Source: Hymenobacter volaticus
GTDB lineage: Bacteria > Bacteroidota > Bacteroidia > Cytophagales > Hymenobacteraceae
Length of the DNA stretch: 64,000 bases
Assembly (NCBI RefSeq): GCF_022921055.1
Contig: NZ_CP095061.1
Coordinates: forward strand, 5,061,501-5,125,500
Direction of reading: 5' to 3'
Shown here: positions 52,507-60,669 of the stretch, piece after piece
How the letters are laid out: each line of letters opens with the position of its first letter
How positions within the stretch are numbered: the first letter of the stretch is position 1
The notes under the pieces: model-generated
Database searches by the model: none
What the model was told of the DNA's origin: nothing
The model's input: the letters and a program-made list of their open reading frames with translations, nothing else
Made by a program: the position numbers and the translations under genes

Positions 52507-54033
52507 CTAAGGATTCACCCGTTCATACGCCCCGAGGTCGGGCGCCGTTATGCTCCGGGGTTTATTGAGGAGGTCGCGCGGTATTGCCGAGTTAAACACC
52601 CCTTTGTTGCTGGCCGGAGAAAGGGTATCGAGACGATAGTCGAACTTATTGCCGAAGCTTCGGAGCGGAGTGCTCTTGAACTTCGGATCAGTGTCAATTT
52701 GATTGCGACGGTTGTCAAAACCTAGCTTGTCGCCAACATCTGTAGTGCCAGCATAGTCATCAGTCTGCAAAATGCTATTCTGAATGTTCAGATTTGGCCG
52801 ATATGTATCGCCGTTTTTAAAGAACAACTCGTCTTTGATTGAGCCCCATATAATGGAGTTATCAACGGTTACTCGAACTGTGTTTGGAACAGCAGTTTGC
52901 TTGTCAGTTACCTCATTGGTGAACCAGAGAGAAGCTGATTCGCGTCGGAACTGTGGGGTGTAATTGGCAATCGTGCAATAGTTCAGAGTGTACGTTCCGC
53001 CGATACCGCGCACGGCATATTCGCCACAGTTGGTGAACAGGCAATTGCGCAGATCAAAGTCGCCGGAGAAACCGAATACTCCTGCTCCTTCAAAACTACT
53101 ACCATCATCACCACCACCACCGAAGGAGCGGGCTTCCCCAGAAATATTGCGCAGGATCGTATTCTCGGCCGTTACCCGTGGGTGAGGGCCGTTGAGCCGG
53201 TTCAAGATCAGCAGACCATATGAGGCGTTTTTGATTTCAGTGAAACGCACCAGATTGTTACGGCTACTACTCGGGTCGAACTGAATACCCCGCCATTGCC
53301 CCGGAATATCAGCATAGAAAGGCTCTAGCCGGTCACCCTGAAAGCGCACAAACGTGGCAGTATCCGTAGGCGTAAGCTCCGCCGATGGGTTGGTATTTTC
53401 GTTGACACGCAAAGTGCCCTGCACCACGATGGCCGAGCCGGCATGCGAGTAAATCCGGGTACCGGGTTGAATGCGGAGCGTCGCGCCGGCATCGACTACT
53501 ACCACGCCATAGATAACGTGCGGACGGTTTTTGGGCCACGTGGTGTTGCGGGTAATATGTTCTTCGGGGCCGTGGAAGTAGGCGTTCTGCCCGTACGACA
53601 CCAGCTTCACGTCCTGCTCGTTGCCGTTGGTTTTGAACAGCAGCTGGTCGTCCACCAGAAAAGGTTTATTATCGGTAGCGCTTGGCCCAAGCTTGGCTTT
53701 CACCAACACAAGCAAGCTGTCTTTACCCCGGATTTCCAGGTCATTGGCCACGCGCATTTCGTCACCGTTGATGAGCAGCGAATAGGTACCGGGATACGTA
53801 TCCGCCAGCCGAATCTCACTGACTTTCACGGCCAGGGAGTTGCGGTTGTACACCCACAGGCGCTTGCTCACGGTGCCCACCTGCGCAAAGACCGTATCGA
53901 AGAGCACGGTATCGGCCGAAAATTCCAGCTTGGCGCTAGCGTCCTTGGTGACTAAGTCTTCCTTCGGCTCGCAGCTCGGCAGCAGGCAAAGTAGTGCCGA
54001 GAAAACAAGTAGCAGCGGGAGTAGAAAGCGCAT
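52507..54033 (-). CDS. Right-handed beta-helix lipoprotein (choice-of-anchor Q)
   Basis: 508 residues from ATG 54033. Signal MRFLLPLLLVFSALLCLLPSC with Cys at 21. N-terminal part: SADTVLFDTVFAQVGTVSKRLWVYN, an Ig-like strand set common in Bacteroidota surface proteins. From about residue 160 the parallel beta-helix coils start (VVDAGATLRIQPGTRIYSHAGS, LFTNCGEYAVRGIGGTYTLN, VTVDNSIIWGSI), and the end is PDLGAYERVNP as in choice-of-anchor Q proteins. It is probably surface-exposed. YjbQ follows it 5 bases on, perhaps one operon. Confidence 0.82.
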   Translation of the reverse strand: MRFLLPLLLVFSALLCLLPSCEPKEDLVTKDASAKLEFSADTVLFDTVFAQVGTVSKRLWVYNRNSLAVKVSEIRLADTYPGTYSLLINGDEMRVANDLEIRGKDSLLVLVKAKLGPSATDNKPFLVDDQLLFKTNGNEQDVKLVSYGQNAYFHGPEEHITRNTTWPKNRPHVIYGVVVVDAGATLRIQPGTRIYSHAGSAIVVQGTLRVNENTNPSAELTPTDTATFVRFQGDRLEPFYADIPGQWRGIQFDPSSSRNNLVRFTEIKNASYGLLILNRLNGPHPRVTAENTILRNISGEARSFGGGGDDGSSFEGAGVFGFSGDFDLRNCLFTNCGEYAVRGIGGTYTLNYCTIANYTPQFRRESASLWFTNEVTDKQTAVPNTVRVTVDNSIIWGSIKDELFFKNGDTYRPNLNIQNSILQTDDYAGTTDVGDKLGFDNRRNQIDTDPKFKSTPLRSFGNKFDYRLDTLSPASNKGVFNSAIPRDLLNKPRSITAPDLGAYERVNP

Positions 54034-54093
54034 AGAAAATCTGGTTGCCAATATGACGTTCTTTTAAGGGCTAACGAGCTTACGGCATCTTTA

Positions 54094-55164
54094 TTACGAT
54101 ACGCCTTCCTTCAGGCGCTCAGCACTTTCAGCGAGGCGCAACTGCTCCACGAAGTCGTCGATGTTGCCTTCCATTACGCTGGCTAGGTTGTACACCGTGA
54201 ACCCGATGCGGTGGTCGGTTACCCGACCTTGGGGGTAATTGTAAGTACGAATCTTGTCGGACCGGTCGCCGCCGCCAATCATGCTCTTGCGGGCTGCGCC
54301 TTCCACTTCATTTTTCTTGGCCAACTCGATTTCGTAGAGGCGCGAGCGAAGTACTTGCAGTGCCTTGTCGAAATTCTTGAGCTGCGACTTCTGGTCCTGG
54401 CACTGTGCTACGAGGCCCGTAGGTAAGTGCGTGAGGCGCACGGCCGAGTACGTCGTGTTTACCGACTGCCCACCGGGGCCCGACGACATAAAGAGGTCCT
54501 TGCGCACATCGTTCATGTCGATCTGCACGTCCAGTTCCTCGGCTTCCGGCATTACCACAATCGAAGCTACCGAGGTGTGAATCCGGCCCTGCGTTTCGGT
54601 GGCGGGTACGCGCTGCACGCGGTGCACCCCCGACTCGAACTTGAGCTTGCCATACACGTCTTCGCCTTTCACGGCCAAGATAATTTCCTTGTAGCCGCCC
54701 GAAGTGCCTTCAGTGGCATCAATCAAATCCATTTTGAGGCCATGCCGTTCGGCGTAGCGCATGTACATCCGCTGCAAGTCGCCGGCAAAAATGGCCGCTT
54801 CGTCGCCACCTGCACCAGCCCGGATTTCCATGATGACGTCTTTCGAGTCGTTGGGGTCCTTGGGCAGCAACAGGTCTTTGATAACCGTTTCGAGGCGCTC
54901 TTGCTCGGGGTAGAGTGCTTCTAGCTCGTCTTTCGCCATTTGGCGGAAGTCTTCGTCTTTCTCGTTGGCAATGACCTCCTTGGCGCTGTCGATGTTGGCC
55001 AGCACGTTCTGGTAGGCCTTGTATTCAACAACAATCTTGTTTAGGTCTTTATATTCTTTATTAAGCGTCTTGTAGCGTTTCATGTCGCTCATGGCGTCGG
55101 GCTGCGTGAGCTGCTCGGCCACGTCGTTGAATCGCTGTTGGATAGCTTCTAGTTTGTCTAGCAT
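54094..55164 (-). CDS. prfA: Peptide chain release factor 1
   Basis: 356 residues from ATG 55164, normal length; an extension to 55215 is not conserved. VQRVPATETQGRIHTS carries the PAT tripeptide that reads UAG/UAA, and SSGPGGQSVNTTYSAVRLTH has the GGQ loop that triggers peptide release. The coiled N-terminal domain and the C-terminal KIRTYNYPQGRVTDHRIG are standard. PrmC, its methylase, is not in the window. Confidence 0.95.
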   Translation of the reverse strand: MLDKLEAIQQRFNDVAEQLTQPDAMSDMKRYKTLNKEYKDLNKIVVEYKAYQNVLANIDSAKEVIANEKDEDFRQMAKDELEALYPEQERLETVIKDLLLPKDPNDSKDVIMEIRAGAGGDEAAIFAGDLQRMYMRYAERHGLKMDLIDATEGTSGGYKEIILAVKGEDVYGKLKFESGVHRVQRVPATETQGRIHTSVASIVVMPEAEELDVQIDMNDVRKDLFMSSGPGGQSVNTTYSAVRLTHLPTGLVAQCQDQKSQLKNFDKALQVLRSRLYEIELAKKNEVEGAARKSMIGGGDRSDKIRTYNYPQGRVTDHRIGFTVYNLASVMEGNIDDFVEQLRLAESAERLKEGVS

Positions 55165-55358
55165 CTTACCTTCTGAGAATTGTATTGGGAGTGCAAAGGT
55201 ACTGAAAACAAACACGTCCTGTGCGTGGCACGGTTCCTCTTGCGCGCAAGAGAAGCACGGCCGTTAGGCGTTTTCTCAGTTCTTTTTTCAGAATAGATAG
55301 GTAGATAGATATTGTGCTTATCAGAAAATGCCTACTTTACGGCCAGAAGTACGCACGC

Positions 55359-55457
55359 ATGGCCTCACTTTCTTTTTCAACTTTCCTTATTTCCGCTCCC
55401 ACCGGCGTCTGTTTGACGACCGGCACCGGCATTATTACAGGTATTACAACCCGCTAG
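55359..55457 (+). CDS. thrL: Threonine operon leader peptide
   Basis: A 32-codon open frame that reads MASLSFSTFLISAPTG, then VCLTTGTGIITGITTR and stop. It holds 8 Thr and 4 Ile codons; from codon 20 to 31 nine of twelve codons are Thr or Ile. E. coli thrL has the same kind of composition. Its stop codon (55455-55457) touches the left arm of the antiterminator, and thrA begins 112 bases on. Slow translation for lack of charged Thr-tRNA or Ile-tRNA would stall the ribosome here and keep the operon on. No protein function of its own is expected. Confidence 0.88.
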   Translation: MASLSFSTFLISAPTGVCLTTGTGIITGITTR

Positions 55458-55550
55458 ACGGGCTGCGCTACCTCTCCTTGCTTTGATGTTTCGCAGCCCG
55501 TCGCCGGCCGCTTCCTAACCAGAAGCCAAGCCGGATCCGACGGGCTTTTT
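55458..55550 (+). promoter_or_regulatory. thr operon attenuator (antiterminator and terminator)
   Basis: Arm 2 (ACGGGCTGCG, 55458-55467) pairs perfectly with arm 3 (CGCAGCCCGT, 55492-55501) to form the antiterminator. Arm 3, extended (AGCCCGTCG, 55495-55503), instead pairs with arm 4 (CGACGGGCT, 55538-55546), with inner stems CCGG/CCGG and GCTTC/GAAGC, and is followed by TTTTT (55546-55550): a terminator. The two structures share 55495-55501 and exclude each other. A ribosome halted at the leader stop codon would cover arm 2 and let the terminator form. Confidence 0.87.
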
Positions 55551-55569
55551 CGTGTCCTCACATCTCTTT

Positions 55570-58023
55570 ATGCTCATGCAGGTTCTGAAATTCGGTGGTT
55601 CGTCGGTGGCTACGGCCCCCAACCTCCAACGTGTGGCGCAGCTCGTGGAAACGGCTGCCCGGCAAGCTCCCACCGTGGTAGTGGTATCGGCCCTCGGGGG
55701 CACCACCGACGCGCTGATTGAAGCCGGCCGCCTAGCTGCCACCGGTTCCGACGAATACCGCGCCCGACTCAAGTACTTGGAAGAGCGCCATTTAGAAGCC
55801 GTGCGCGGCTTGCTTCCCATTCCCGATCAAAGCGCCGTGTTGAGCTTGGTGAAAACCTACTGCAACGAGCTAGACAGTGTGTGCGACGGGATATATTCGT
55901 TGGGTGAGTTGTCGAACCGGACGCTAGACCGGCTGGTGAGCTTCGGGGAATTGCTGTCGTCGCGGCTGCTGGCGGCTTGCTTGAAAGCACACGGCGTGGC
56001 CCACATTTGGCAAGACAGCCGGCAACTGATCCGCACCAACTCGCATTACGGCTTTGCGGCGGTGGATACGGCCGTTACCAATCAGCAGATTCAGGAGTTT
56101 GTGGCCGCGCAGCCAAGTTCGGTGTACGTGGTGCCGGGCTTTATCGGGAGCGATGCGCAAGGCACTACCACCACCCTCGGCCGCGGTGGCTCCGACTATA
56201 CGGCGGCCATCTTCGCGGGAGCTTTGGCGGCGGAGCGGTTGGAAATCTGGACCGATGTAAGCGGGATGATGACCGCCGACCCTCGTCTCGTGACGCTGGC
56301 CCGCCCGATTCCGCGCATCTCGTATCAAGAAGCCATGGAGTTGTCGCACTTCGGGGCCAAGGTGCTGTATCCGCCTACTATTCAGCCGGTCATGAGTCAG
56401 GGAATCCCACTCTGGATCAAGAATACCTTCGCGCCGGAAGATGAAGGTACACTAGTAGAAATAAATCCGCCGGCCAACCGCGACGTGGTGCGGGGCCTTT
56501 CGAGCATCGGGCAGCTAGCGTTGCTAAACCTGGAAGGCAGCGGCATGGTAGGCATTCCGGGCTTCTCGCGGCGGTTGTTTGGGGCGCTGGCACTGTTGCG
56601 CATCAACGTAATTCTCATCACCCAAAGCTCGTCGGAGCACTCGATCTGCGTGGCCGTGCGGGCCGCCGATGCTGGCTCGGCGCAAGCCGCCGTTGACGAG
56701 GAATTCAGTGTTGAAATAGCCGCCGGCAAAGTAGCGCCACTGCGTTGTGAGATGGACCTAGCTATTGTGGCATTGGTGGGTGAGCAGATGCGCAACCACC
56801 CGGGCATCAGTGGGCGAATGTTTGGGGCGCTCGGCCAGAACGGCGTGAACATCCGGGCCATTGCGCAGGGCTCGTCGGAGCGAAATATATCCGCCGTGAT
56901 TCGGACCGCCGACGTGCGCAAGGCCATCAACGTGCTGCACGAGGAGTTCTTCGAGGAGACCACCAAGCAGGTGAACATCTTTGTAGCGGGAGTGGGCAAC
57001 GTGGGCAAGAAACTGCTCGAACAAATGGCTCGGCAACAGCAGTGGCTGCGCGAAAAGCTGCGCCTTAATTTGCGCGTAGTGGGCCTAGCCAACAGCCAAC
57101 GCTTCGTACTGACAGAAGACGGTGGCATCGAGCTGAACGACTGGCAAACGGCGCTAGAGCAAGGACAACCGCTGAATTTAACGGAATTGGTCGAGCAGCT
57201 GCACGCTCGCAATCTACGCAACACGGTGTTTGTGGACGTGACGGCCAGCGCCGACGTAGCAAAAACCTATGCCTCGTTGCTCGAGAAAAGTATGGCCGTG
57301 GTAGCCTGCAACAAGGTGGCCTGCTCGTCGGAATACGTGAATTATGCCCGCTTGAAATCATTGGCACGCGAGTTCAATGCCGAATTTCTGTTTGAAACCA
57401 ACGTGGGGGCCGGCCTACCCGTCATCGGTTCGCTCAACGACCTATTGCGCAGCGGCGACGAGGTACACCGCATTGAGGCCGTACTCTCGGGCACGCTCAA
57501 TTTTGTGTTCAACCACTACGATGGCACCGTGCCCTTCGCCGACGTGGTGCGCCAAGCCCAAGCCGAAGGCTACACCGAACCCGATCCACGCCTGGACTTG
57601 AGTGGCACCGACGTAGCCCGCAAAATCCTAATTTTGGCGCGGGAAGCTGGTCAGGAAATGGAGCTAAGTGACATTCACAACGAATCCTTCCTGCCCGCCT
57701 CTTGTCTGGAAGGCGACGTGGAAGCTTTCTACAAGCAATTGGCCGTGCACGAATCCCACTTCCGCAGCCTCTATGATGCGGCCGCCGCTCAAGGTCAACG
57801 CCTCAAATTCGTGGCGCGCTACGCCAACGGCAAAGCTAGCGTCGGGCTGCAAGGCGTAGCACCAGGTCATGATTTCTACGTGTTGCAGGGCAAAGACAAT
57901 GCTGTGCTCTTCTTCACCAACCGCTACCCCGAGCAACCTTTAGTAGTGAAAGGTGCGGGCGCCGGCGCCGATGTCACGGCCTCCGGTGTTTTCGCCGATG
58001 TAATCCGTGCCGCTCGGGCGTAA
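55570..58023 (+). CDS. thrA: Bifunctional aspartate kinase / homoserine dehydrogenase I
   Basis: 817 residues from ATG 55570 (55576 is also possible). Aspartate kinase domain: LKFGGSSVATAPNLQRV, LGRGGSDYTAAIFAGAL, TDVSGMMTADPRLV. Two ACT regulatory domains (GMVGIPGFSRRLFGAL, GISGRMFGALGQNGVNIRA) cover about 300-450. Homoserine dehydrogenase starts near 465: FVAGVGNVGKKLLEQ (NAD-binding), FETNVGAGLPVIGSLNDLL and LSGTLNFVFNHYDG. It catalyses the first and third steps toward threonine. It is the first gene after the attenuator. Confidence 0.95.
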   Translation: MLMQVLKFGGSSVATAPNLQRVAQLVETAARQAPTVVVVSALGGTTDALIEAGRLAATGSDEYRARLKYLEERHLEAVRGLLPIPDQSAVLSLVKTYCNELDSVCDGIYSLGELSNRTLDRLVSFGELLSSRLLAACLKAHGVAHIWQDSRQLIRTNSHYGFAAVDTAVTNQQIQEFVAAQPSSVYVVPGFIGSDAQGTTTTLGRGGSDYTAAIFAGALAAERLEIWTDVSGMMTADPRLVTLARPIPRISYQEAMELSHFGAKVLYPPTIQPVMSQGIPLWIKNTFAPEDEGTLVEINPPANRDVVRGLSSIGQLALLNLEGSGMVGIPGFSRRLFGALALLRINVILITQSSSEHSICVAVRAADAGSAQAAVDEEFSVEIAAGKVAPLRCEMDLAIVALVGEQMRNHPGISGRMFGALGQNGVNIRAIAQGSSERNISAVIRTADVRKAINVLHEEFFEETTKQVNIFVAGVGNVGKKLLEQMARQQQWLREKLRLNLRVVGLANSQRFVLTEDGGIELNDWQTALEQGQPLNLTELVEQLHARNLRNTVFVDVTASADVAKTYASLLEKSMAVVACNKVACSSEYVNYARLKSLAREFNAEFLFETNVGAGLPVIGSLNDLLRSGDEVHRIEAVLSGTLNFVFNHYDGTVPFADVVRQAQAEGYTEPDPRLDLSGTDVARKILILAREAGQEMELSDIHNESFLPASCLEGDVEAFYKQLAVHESHFRSLYDAAAAQGQRLKFVARYANGKASVGLQGVAPGHDFYVLQGKDNAVLFFTNRYPEQPLVVKGAGAGADVTASGVFADVIRAARA

Positions 58024-58098: not shown

Positions 58099-58193
58099 GT
58101 CATGCTGAGCGGAGTCGAAGCATCTCGCGTGCTGACGTTGTGGTGCTAATTCAACGATTCGAGCGAGATGCTTCGGCTGCGCTCAGCAGGACG
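58099..58193. repeat. Palindromic intergenic repeat, locus D
   Basis: GGTCATGCTGAGCGGAGTCG (left) returns as CTTCGGCTGCGCTCAGCAGG (right), with loop CTAATTCAACGATTCGAGCG. About 87 bases agree with locus A at all but four positions. It sits between thrA and thrB, so the 350-base gap would break or weaken the operon unless read through. Confidence 0.85.
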
Positions 58194-58375: not shown

Positions 58376-59305
58376 ATGCCTACTTCCAACTTTCTGACGC
58401 TGTATTCACCGGCTACCGTGGCCAATGTAGTCTGCGGGTTTGACGTGCTGGGCTTTGCGCTGGAAGCCCCTTGCGACACCATGCATCTGCGCCTGACTGA
58501 ACAGCCGGGAGTTGTGATTACGCATGAGGACGACTTCGACCTGCCTACCGAGCCTGCACGCAACGTGGCGGGGGCGGCACTGCTAGCGTTGCTACGGGCC
58601 GCCCCGGCCGGTACGGGCTTCGAGATGCGCATCAACAAAGCCATTCTGCCGGGCAGCGGTATTGGTAGCAGCGCGGCCAGCGCGGCGGGTGCCGTAGTGG
58701 GAGCCAATCTGTTGCTAGGCAACATCTTCTCTAAAGAGGAACTGGTACGCTTTGCCATGTTCGGGGAAGAGGTAGCATCCGGCGCGCAGCATGCCGACAA
58801 TATTGCCCCGGCTATCTACGGCGGCGTCACGCTTATCCGTTCGGCCGAACCGCTGGATATTGTGCCTTTGTCGGCGCCGCCGCTGCACGTGACGGTAGTG
58901 CACCCGCAGATAGAAGTGCGCACCGCCGATGCCCGCCAGATTCTGAAACAGCAAGTGCCGCTAAAATCTGCCATCCGGCAGTGGGCCAACGTGGCCGGAC
59001 TGGTGGCGGGCTTGTTGAAGTCAGATTACCAGCTTATTGGCCGCTCGCTGGAAGACGTGATTGTGGAGCCAGTACGTAGCATTCTGATTCCGGGCTTTGC
59101 TGCCGTGAAGGCGCGCAGTTTAGAAGCCGGTGCACTGGGCGGGGGTATCTCGGGTTCTGGCCCATCCATCTTCATGCTGAGTGAAAACGAAGCGACGGCG
59201 CAGGCGGTAGCCAGTGCTATGCGAGCAGTATATGAGCAGCTAGGAGTAGACTTCCACATCCACGTCAGCACCATCAATTCCACCGGAGTACGATTTGAGC
59301 TGTAG
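58376..59305 (+). CDS. thrB: Homoserine kinase
   Basis: 309 residues of the GHMP kinase family: LYSPATVANVVCGFDVLGFA (N-terminal substrate loop), LPGSGIGSSAASAAGAVVGAN (ATP-binding glycine-rich loop), and the C-terminal LGGGISGSGPSIFML. It phosphorylates homoserine with ATP. It follows thrA after a gap filled by repeat D and precedes thrC by 71 bases. The ATG at 58376 gives the standard N-terminus. Confidence 0.94.
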   Translation: MPTSNFLTLYSPATVANVVCGFDVLGFALEAPCDTMHLRLTEQPGVVITHEDDFDLPTEPARNVAGAALLALLRAAPAGTGFEMRINKAILPGSGIGSSAASAAGAVVGANLLLGNIFSKEELVRFAMFGEEVASGAQHADNIAPAIYGGVTLIRSAEPLDIVPLSAPPLHVTVVHPQIEVRTADARQILKQQVPLKSAIRQWANVAGLVAGLLKSDYQLIGRSLEDVIVEPVRSILIPGFAAVKARSLEAGALGGGISGSGPSIFMLSENEATAQAVASAMRAVYEQLGVDFHIHVSTINSTGVRFEL

Positions 59306-59376: not shown

Positions 59377-60669
59377 ATGCGCTACTATAGCCTCAAACAG
59401 CAAGCTCCTACCGTTGATTTTCAAGCCGCTACCATCGCCGGACAGGCGCCGGATGGCGGGCTATACTTTCCGGAACGGATTCCGAAGTTCTCTCCAGAAC
59501 TGTTGCGGAACTTCCGCACTATGTCGCGGGCTGAGGTGGCGTTTGAAGTCATCCAGCCCTATGTCGGCGACACAATTCCGGAAGAGGTACTGCGCGGCAT
59601 CTGCGCCGAGACAGTGGACTTCGAGTTTCCGTTGGTGCCCGTGACTAGTCAGATAGCAGCGCTGGAACTGTTTCATGGTCCGACGTTGGCGTTCAAAGAC
59701 GTGGGTGCACGGTTCATGAGCCGCTGCTTGGGCTACTTCTCACGGCAGCAAACGGCGCCGGTTACGGTATTGGTAGCGACTTCCGGCGACACGGGCGGGG
59801 CCGTCGCCGACGGTTTCTTGGGTGTTGAAGGGGTCGAGGTGGTAATTCTGTATCCATCGGGCAAGGTCAGTCCGTTGCAGGAATTGCAGCTGACCACGCT
59901 AGGCCAGAACATCACGGCCCTGGAAGTGCGCGGCAACTTCGACGACTGCCAGCGGCTGGTAAAGCAAGCTTTCCTCGACCCGCGCGTAACCGAGCATCGG
60001 CAACTCACTTCTGCTAACTCCATCAACGTGGCCCGCTGGTTGCCGCAACAGTTCTACTATTGCTACGCTCTGCAACAGTGGGCACACGAAACCCCACCGG
60101 TGGTGGCAGTACCGAGCGGCAACTTCGGCAACATTTGCGCCGGGCTCATGGCGCACGCCTCGGGCTTGCCCATCGGGCACTTTGTGGCGGCCTGCAATGC
60201 CAACTCAGCCGTAGCCGACTACCTCCGCACCGGCGTTTTCGAGGCCCGTCCTGCTGTCGTTACGCTTTCCAATGCCATGGACGTAGGCAACCCGAGCAAC
60301 TTTGGGCGCATCCTGGAGCTATTCGAACAGCGCCACGCCGATGTAAGCCGAATGGTTAGCGGTGCCATCGTTTCCGACGCGGAAACTACAGCCACCATCA
60401 AGCGGGTACACCAGGAAACCGGCTACTTGCTCGATCCACACGGCGCCGTGGCGCTTCGGGCCTTGGAAGACTACCTGAGCGAACATCCAACTGAACACGG
60501 CATTTTTCTGGAAACGGCGCACCCGGTAAAATTTCCGGAAGTGGTGGAGCCTGTTATTGGCGCAGAGGTGCCTGTACCCACGGCAGTGCGCGGCCTCCTG
60601 ACCCGGGCAAAAAAGAGTGTACTACTCGAACCTGAGTATAAGGCGCTACAAGAGTTTTTGCTGCAATAA
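59377..60669 (+). CDS. thrC: Threonine synthase
   Basis: 430 residues. MRYYSLKQQAPTVDFQAATI and DGGLYFPERIP form the usual start; FHGPTLAFKDVGARFM holds the PLP lysine; LVATSGDTGGAVADGFLG is the phosphate/PLP loop; LTSANSINVARWLPQQFYY, VPSGNFGNICAGLMAHASGLP and FLETAHPVKFPEVVEP complete it. It converts O-phosphohomoserine to threonine. It is the last gene of the thr operon and is followed by a hairpin. Confidence 0.95.
   Translation: MRYYSLKQQAPTVDFQAATIAGQAPDGGLYFPERIPKFSPELLRNFRTMSRAEVAFEVIQPYVGDTIPEEVLRGICAETVDFEFPLVPVTSQIAALELFHGPTLAFKDVGARFMSRCLGYFSRQQTAPVTVLVATSGDTGGAVADGFLGVEGVEVVILYPSGKVSPLQELQLTTLGQNITALEVRGNFDDCQRLVKQAFLDPRVTEHRQLTSANSINVARWLPQQFYYCYALQQWAHETPPVVAVPSGNFGNICAGLMAHASGLPIGHFVAACNANSAVADYLRTGVFEARPAVVTLSNAMDVGNPSNFGRILELFEQRHADVSRMVSGAIVSDAETTATIKRVHQETGYLLDPHGAVALRALEDYLSEHPTEHGIFLETAHPVKFPEVVEPVIGAEVPVPTAVRGLLTRAKKSVLLEPEYKALQEFLLQ

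Follow-up and report, generated by a model that had tools for sequence, protein, structure and literature searches.

Upstream of thrA in Hymenobacter volaticus, a short threonine-rich open reading frame (ORF) is followed by two hairpins, which raises the question of whether a ribosome on a leader decides if thrA is transcribed, as in the enterobacterial thr operon. The window, by which we mean the whole 64,000-nt stretch analysed, comes from assembly GCF_022921055.1 (contig NZ_CP095061.1, 5,061,501–5,125,500, forward strand). A preliminary description had placed a complete threonine attenuator ahead of thrA, and this was borne out: leader ORF, antiterminator and terminator are all present (Table 1).

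Table 1. Features of the thr locus, in positions of the window
Feature	Position	Strand	Basis
Candidate promoter-like box TACTTTA, 5' of leader	55333..55339	+	Pattern kept in aligned loci
Leader peptide ORF, 32 codons plus TAG, 8 Thr and 4 Ile	55359..55457	+	ATG to TAG; sequence and conservation
Arm 1 (CCCG), pairs with 55459–55462 around the stop codon	55450..55453	+	RNAalifold and pairing counts
Arm 2, antiterminator 5' arm, includes the partner of arm 1	55457..55467	+	Fold and pairing counts
Arm 3, antiterminator 3' arm (55492–55502) overlapping terminator 5' arm (55495–55508)	55492..55508	+	Fold, arm exchange, pairing counts
Arm 4, terminator 3' arm (55530–55534 and 55538–55546)	55530..55546	+	Fold and pairing counts
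Terminator U-run, first T paired	55546..55550	+	Sequence; T-rich tails at the equivalent place in relatives
thrA, bifunctional aspartokinase/homoserine dehydrogenase	55576..58023	+	Start by comparison; name from sequence and gene order
thrB-like gene (homoserine kinase)	58376..59305	+	Named from sequence and gene order
thrC-like gene (threonine synthase)	59377..60669	+	Named from sequence and gene order

A threonine-rich leader precedes thrA

The 32-codon leader that had been claimed, with its 8 Thr and 4 Ile codons, is found at 55359–55457 and reads MASLSFSTFLISAPTGVCLTTGTGIITGITTR. Enterobacterial thrL likewise carries 8 Thr and 4 Ile codons. For the 400-nt region preceding thrA, the Thr-run score was reached by none of 2000 dinucleotide shuffles; of the window's 1272 overlapping 400-nt stretches, just three equalled it with ATG starts, and all three cover this locus. 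When GTG and TTG starts were allowed, scores of at least 5, 7 and 11 were found in 63, 15 and one, respectively, of 603 other 420-nt stretches. Because this background is higher with alternative starts, the presence thresholds of 5 and 7 are loose when applied locus by locus, and the comparison with relatives draws its weight from position, frame and structure in combination. By its ORF, codons, frame and conservation, the leader would be the short ORF rich in codons for the regulated amino acid that marks attenuators of this kind.

The gene 5' of the leader is divergent and, as read from its sequence, prfA-like. Downstream, an in-frame ATG stands at 55570, 20 bases beyond the terminator, where thrA had been said to begin; relatives, however, favour the ATG at 55576 (M-Q-V-L-K-F-G-G). 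Between thrA and thrB, in a gap of 352 bp, lies an imperfect inverted repeat, GTCATGCTGAGCGGAGTCGAAGCATCTC..GAGATGCTTCGGCTGCGCTCAGCAGGAC (58099–58192), which is perhaps a mobile or repeated element; a similar repeat lies upstream of thrA at locus L159.

Antiterminator and terminator compete for shared bases

The antiterminator was found where it had been reported and is one pair longer than claimed, with 11 bp between 55457–55467 and 55492–55502 (−26.3 kcal/mol; none of 200 shuffles was as stable). Its first base is the last of the leader's TAG (55455–55457). The terminator has the arms 55495–55503 and 55538–55546 and the TTTTT tail originally described, T55546 being the last paired base; its stem continues inward through 55504–55508/55530–55534 and then 55510–55514/55522–55526, and over 55495–55546 it reaches −32.3 kcal/mol, again matched by none of 200 shuffles. 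The base sharing and mutual exclusion put forward for the two hairpins are likewise confirmed, since their arms overlap at 55495–55502. The locus has, in other words, the mutually exclusive antiterminator and intrinsic terminator of the attenuators of amino-acid operons. A further hairpin, absent from the preliminary description, pairs arm 1 with CGGG at 55459–55462 and holds the stop codon in its loop. A simple promoter and terminator scan of 7 kb, whose terminator rule was a stem with a loop of 3–8 bases directly before a T-run, did not list the window's terminator among its sites.

Predicted folding depends on ribosome position

We folded each of 43 Hymenobacter leader RNAs with all bases up to a chosen ribosome edge hidden and counted arm-specific pairs, giving the edge as the first free base relative to the base after the leader stop. 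With the edge at −18 to −3, 40–42 of the 43 loci formed the antiterminator and no more than 6 the terminator. An edge at +3 gave 38 loci with the terminator and 34 with the antiterminator; at +6, 41 loci had the terminator and 21 of the 43 still had antiterminator pairs; from +9 onward, the terminator formed in 41 and the antiterminator in none. An edge far upstream (−24 to −36) gave a mixed outcome, with the terminator in 13–16 loci and the antiterminator in 27–30, as expected if hairpin 1:2 competes. Both required states were obtained for 35/43 real leaders and 15/430 shuffled ones, so that eight of the loci fail the combined test. In E. coli, about 12 nt separate the first A-site base from the leading edge of the ribosome. 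Given this footprint, stalls at most Thr codons, Thr27 among them, are predicted to cause antitermination and arrival at the stop codon to cause termination, a stall at the last Thr codon being borderline. Ribosome position thus selects the structure in silico at 35 of 43 loci, for a footprint derived from E. coli.

Leader and helices are conserved within a Hymenobacter group

ThrA was searched for in named genomes (the best 80 of 395 loci were used) and, across the family, in 200 genomes, 144 of which gave a match. The family loci examined were 95 from the window's genus, its own included, and 18, 7, 5 and 4 from the genera g3, g4, g5 and g6. A Thr-run ORF scoring at least 5 precedes thrA at 45 of the 95 genus loci, and at 16 of the 40 loci from Hymenobacter or Hymenobacteraceae among the best 80 of 395. 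The remaining 50 genus loci have thrA and fall below the leader score (49 and L091); with a leader at fewer than half of the genus loci, the device is therefore dispensable. In a ThrA tree of 114 sequences, made by a quick method from loci other than those fetched as short stretches (L116 on) and L019, whose ThrA is cut by a TAG, 33 leader-plus-terminator rows, L091 included, fall together on the same side of a branch supported at SH-aLRT 94, with the 24 leaderless Hymenobacter rows outside. At L091 itself, a G run differs by one base from that of its near relative L180, which puts the Thr run out of frame and leaves the arms intact; this is either a real loss or a sequencing error.

For alignment A1 we chose 43 leader loci so as to avoid duplicates (41 distinct rows), with L091 excluded. 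The leader ORF of L097 was chosen by hand, L082 offers only 68 nt upstream, the mis-anchored L264 and L330 were counted as misses, and the paralogue locus L212 stands outside every count. The 43 leaders have 27–32 codons, and Thr accounts for 295 of their 1278 codons; reading in the other two frames gives 25 and 30. Upstream Thr columns alternate among synonymous codons, and the last two codons, ACA and ACC, are nearly invariant; because the latter are partly fixed by their overlap with arm 1, they give no independent sign of selection for Thr. Before the leader start, TACTTTR or TAGCTTW occurs at a distance of 18–24 nt in 43/43 loci, a count that carries no shuffled control, for a pattern picked after a TAnnTTTG-type promoter test had missed 16 of the 43 (3/43 matched strictly and 27/43 with a looser pattern). 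The TACTTTA of the window resembles the Bacteroidota −7 element, though not exactly.

RNAalifold, run on A1, recovered unprompted part of helices 1:2 (three pairs) and 3:4. Paired cells make up 91.7% of helix 1:2, 88.1% of helix 2:3 and 95.6% of the helix 3:4 core, compared with at most 52.6%, 52.5% and 60.5% in the respective slid controls. When arms were exchanged between loci, pairing was weaker on average, and none of 2000 permutations reached the cognate mean for either 2:3 or 3:4; the register of L020, L131 and L132 was set by hand for this exchange and not for the counts of paired cells. Paired changes are few because the arms are strongly conserved. In the covariation analysis proposed for arms 2, 3 and 4, three of five pairs of helix 3:4 show double changes (six cells, two sequences per pair), above all 500 shuffles. 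Helix 2:3 has five double-changed cells in two of nine pairs, a pair count matched by 196 of 500 shuffles, and its covariation score of 0.052 is lower than that of the slid control at −2 (0.067). Helix 1:2 has double changes in one pair only, a count that 466 of 500 shuffles equal. The preliminary description had made its reading depend on conservation of leader codons and stems in relatives, and within the Hymenobacter group the frame, the Thr codons and all three helices are kept.

A different 5' region of thrA, containing TACATTGC, is conserved among seven distinct leaderless Hymenobacter loci (L038, L040, L043, L057, L061, L163 and L171). A long hairpin follows TACATTGC, closed by CTGTTTGG/CCAAACAG in L038, L040 and L043, a T-run is present in six of the seven, and a final hairpin TTCTGGTTTCGC..CCCACCCA.GCGG..AACCAGAA lies just before thrA; the layout is riboswitch-like. 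The pattern of that final hairpin occurs in 8 of 120 genomes of the genus, at one site each. For five of the seven, or duplicates of them, Rfam searches gave only sub-threshold miRNA matches, in L163.

Threonine leaders in other Bacteroidia take several forms

The search upstream of thrA in relatives that had been proposed found Thr/Ile leaders of various architectures across several families of Bacteroidia. At 34 of the 40 non-Hymenobacter loci among the best 80 of 395, many of them from Chitinophagaceae, inspection placed the leader stop in a hairpin loop, and these leaders often share the ending of the window's leader, ..ACAACCCG-TAA. All 34 have CATA (CATAT in 32) about 14–15 nt after the stop and all 34 a GGG box (for example L026:3868–3921). 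A terminator scan of them gave scattered candidates only, from none to −24.6 kcal/mol, with T-runs mostly interrupted. The Chitinophagaceae-type hairpin is paired in 90.6% of cells, with slid controls at no more than 50.8%, and has paired changes in one pair (two cells).

A model of this form, R1, made one strong match (E of 8e-9 or better) in each of 10 genomes, at a thrA locus partly used to build it; elsewhere in those genomes, with 150 candidates scored in each, matches were only weak. On the window's genome, where 150 of 1495 candidates were scored, R1 gave only a chance-level match elsewhere (E 0.96). The window's leader has in common with this type the stop-loop hairpin and the leader end, and differs in having no CATAT box. 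As a general element R1 found no backing: 8 of its 21 weak matches (E 0.01 to 0.96) were inspected and L229–L231, which lie in one common region, were rejected, the ORFs listed for L229 and L230 looking NADH dehydrogenase-like. Another weak match, L228, shows a hairpin with similar arms before another gene.

Within the family, leaders scoring at least 5 occur at 13 of 18 g3 loci, all five g5 loci and all four g6 loci (for three g6 genes the match to ThrA is confined to its aspartokinase part), and at none of the seven g4 loci. The g3 and g5 leaders displayed have U-run terminators built from other arms. Further loci were taken at order level (60, from 89 of 148 genomes with a match) and class level (24, from 34 of 159). 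Among other Cytophagales, 12 of the 60 loci score at least 7 (7/8 in family f19, 3/9 in f4 and 2/5 in f5). Twelve Cytophagales loci were displayed, with L260 of f5 added by eye; the stop lies clearly in a hairpin loop in seven (L254, L260, L262, L267, L269, L287 and L297), five of which have CATAT. At class level, 10 of the 24 loci score at least 7, one of which (L338) looks spurious; the four loci of family f61 have Thr/Ile leaders with U-run terminators, and L312, L313, L314 and L333 have stop-loop hairpins. Compared with the window, the f61, g3 and g5 leaders continue past the Thr run with further codons, and several of them have their candidate antiterminator arm within the ORF. L213–L215 (g6), L318 and L320 are Thr-rich leaders with a like hairpin lacking the stop in its loop and with CATAT downstream; they may represent a variant arrangement of the same leader.

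The window's ThrA is 62–67% identical to the non-Hymenobacter proteins among the best 80 of 395, and 44–51% identical to the best ThrA of g3–g5 and of one g6 genome in its own family. This higher identity outside the family suggests, short of proof, that the thr locus came to be common to Hymenobacter and Chitinophagaceae by transfer, and the common leader end then suggests descent of the Hymenobacter attenuator from a terminator-less form. The attenuator may derive from a Chitinophagaceae-like leader with a stop-loop hairpin and an invariant CATA box.

Discussion

The locus is very probably one of ribosome-mediated transcription attenuation of thrA, with a reach that probably extends to thrB and thrC. 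The conserved frame, codons and helices support the original reading as a threonine attenuator, and the predicted switch behaves as that reading requires. Transcription would begin just upstream of 55359, and the leader would then be translated. When threonyl-tRNA or isoleucyl-tRNA is scarce, the ribosome would stall at Thr or Ile codons and leave arm 2 free to pair with arm 3, so that the terminator would not form and thrA would be transcribed. With charged tRNA plentiful, it would reach the TAG and cover arm 2, whereupon arms 3 and 4 would pair and transcription would stop at about 55550. If no ribosome is present, or if it stalls early, arm 1 would compete in part for arm 2 and partly favour the terminator.

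The leader might instead work mainly through translation or Rho, by reinitiation or by ribosome release and Rho loading after the stop, with the hairpins secondary. The Chitinophagaceae leaders lend this some weight, keeping the Thr codons and the stop-loop hairpin; because they show no consistent strong hairpin and U-run, a leader is evidently useful without a terminator. The Hymenobacter group, however, has a strong hairpin and T-run whose core pairing is kept, in two sequences through double changes, and the placement of the arms relative to the stop suits transcription attenuation. We therefore consider a mainly translational or Rho-dependent leader unlikely here.

The hairpin might also be simply an unregulated intergenic terminator beside an incidental Thr-rich ORF. 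Sites resembling terminators are frequent, with 13 from the simple scan of 7 kb where 7.7 were expected, but leader and stems are kept together and, because the upstream gene is divergent, there is no plus-strand transcript to end at this place; we judge this reading very improbable. The antiterminator/terminator geometry by itself would be compatible with a T-box-like element or a riboswitch for a small molecule, in which no leader is translated. Against such an element, the in-frame Thr codons are maintained with synonymous changes, and an Rfam search of window positions 54000–56500, at E up to 10, returned one chance-level snoRNA match elsewhere and nothing else, which makes it the least credible of these alternatives.

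Attenuation by a translating ribosome is also how enterobacterial thrL (RF00506) is organised: both have a Thr/Ile leader before thrABC and a mutually exclusive antiterminator and terminator. In the window, by comparison, the arms follow directly after the stop codon, and the stop lies in a hairpin loop. RF00506 had no match in positions 54000–56500 up to an E of 10, and the locus does not belong to that family by this measure; L189, of the same family as the window, scored 35.2 bits for RF00506 against a gathering score of 55, and Rfam searches of sets of 10, 4 and 7 relatives found nothing at the gathering score. The window's attenuator is thus predicted to work like the enterobacterial one while standing outside Rfam's Thr_leader. 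The enterobacterial-type logic of the preliminary description stands. Its evolutionary remark, which weighed independent origin against deep common use, needs to be changed, as Thr/Ile leaders span several Bacteroidia families and the terminator version was seen only in one Hymenobacter group.

Candidate attenuators, threonine included, were reportedly described also from Bacteroidetes/Chlorobi by Vitreschak et al. in 2004. Our literature search, whose reach did not extend to that study, found no thr leader described for Hymenobacter, Chitinophagaceae or other Bacteroidota. As far as the text consulted goes, PMC2965389 cites Vitreschak 2004 for Proteobacteria only. In the window's own phylum, strong clues of leader peptide attenuation have been found upstream of amino-acid biosynthesis operons of Flavobacterium psychrophilum, the relevant passage naming neither an operon nor threonine (PMC9723704); small ORFs reminiscent of leader peptides are noted in Bacteroides thetaiotaomicron (PMC7366714), and PMC2864571 lists Bacteroid-trp (RF01692), a cis-regulatory motif. 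The Chitinophagaceae leaders recall the LEU element and cys leaders of Actinobacteria, which have regulatory codons without an obvious intrinsic terminator. LEU is a pseudoknot of Leu codons with the leuA Shine-Dalgarno box, whereas the Chitinophagaceae form has a stop-loop hairpin with CATA(T) and GGG boxes (PMC1262725).

The window's attenuator is therefore a new example of a classic control device and not a wholly new one, and is well supported as such because related versions recur in relatives. The more novel lead is the terminator-less Chitinophagaceae form. We tentatively suggest, as an idea somewhat likelier to prove wrong than right, that, in Chitinophagaceae and some other Bacteroidia, the thr leaders are terminator-less attenuators, in which the stop lies in the loop of a hairpin of the last Thr codons with CATA(T) and GGG at a near-fixed distance, and in which the ribosome would act on a pause, on Rho or on translation start; the Hymenobacter form would be derived, with arm 2 recruited into an antiterminator/terminator pair. 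The E. coli his and trp leaders have a hairpin-stabilised pause, and the spacing between hairpin and CATAT would be compatible with one.

For Bacteroidota, a phylum in which devices of this kind had been suggested, the locus provides a threonine switch under ribosome control that can be tested. Its relatives present one regulatory leader with what seem to be several output mechanisms, so that the origin and change of attenuators may be tested in culturable bacteria.
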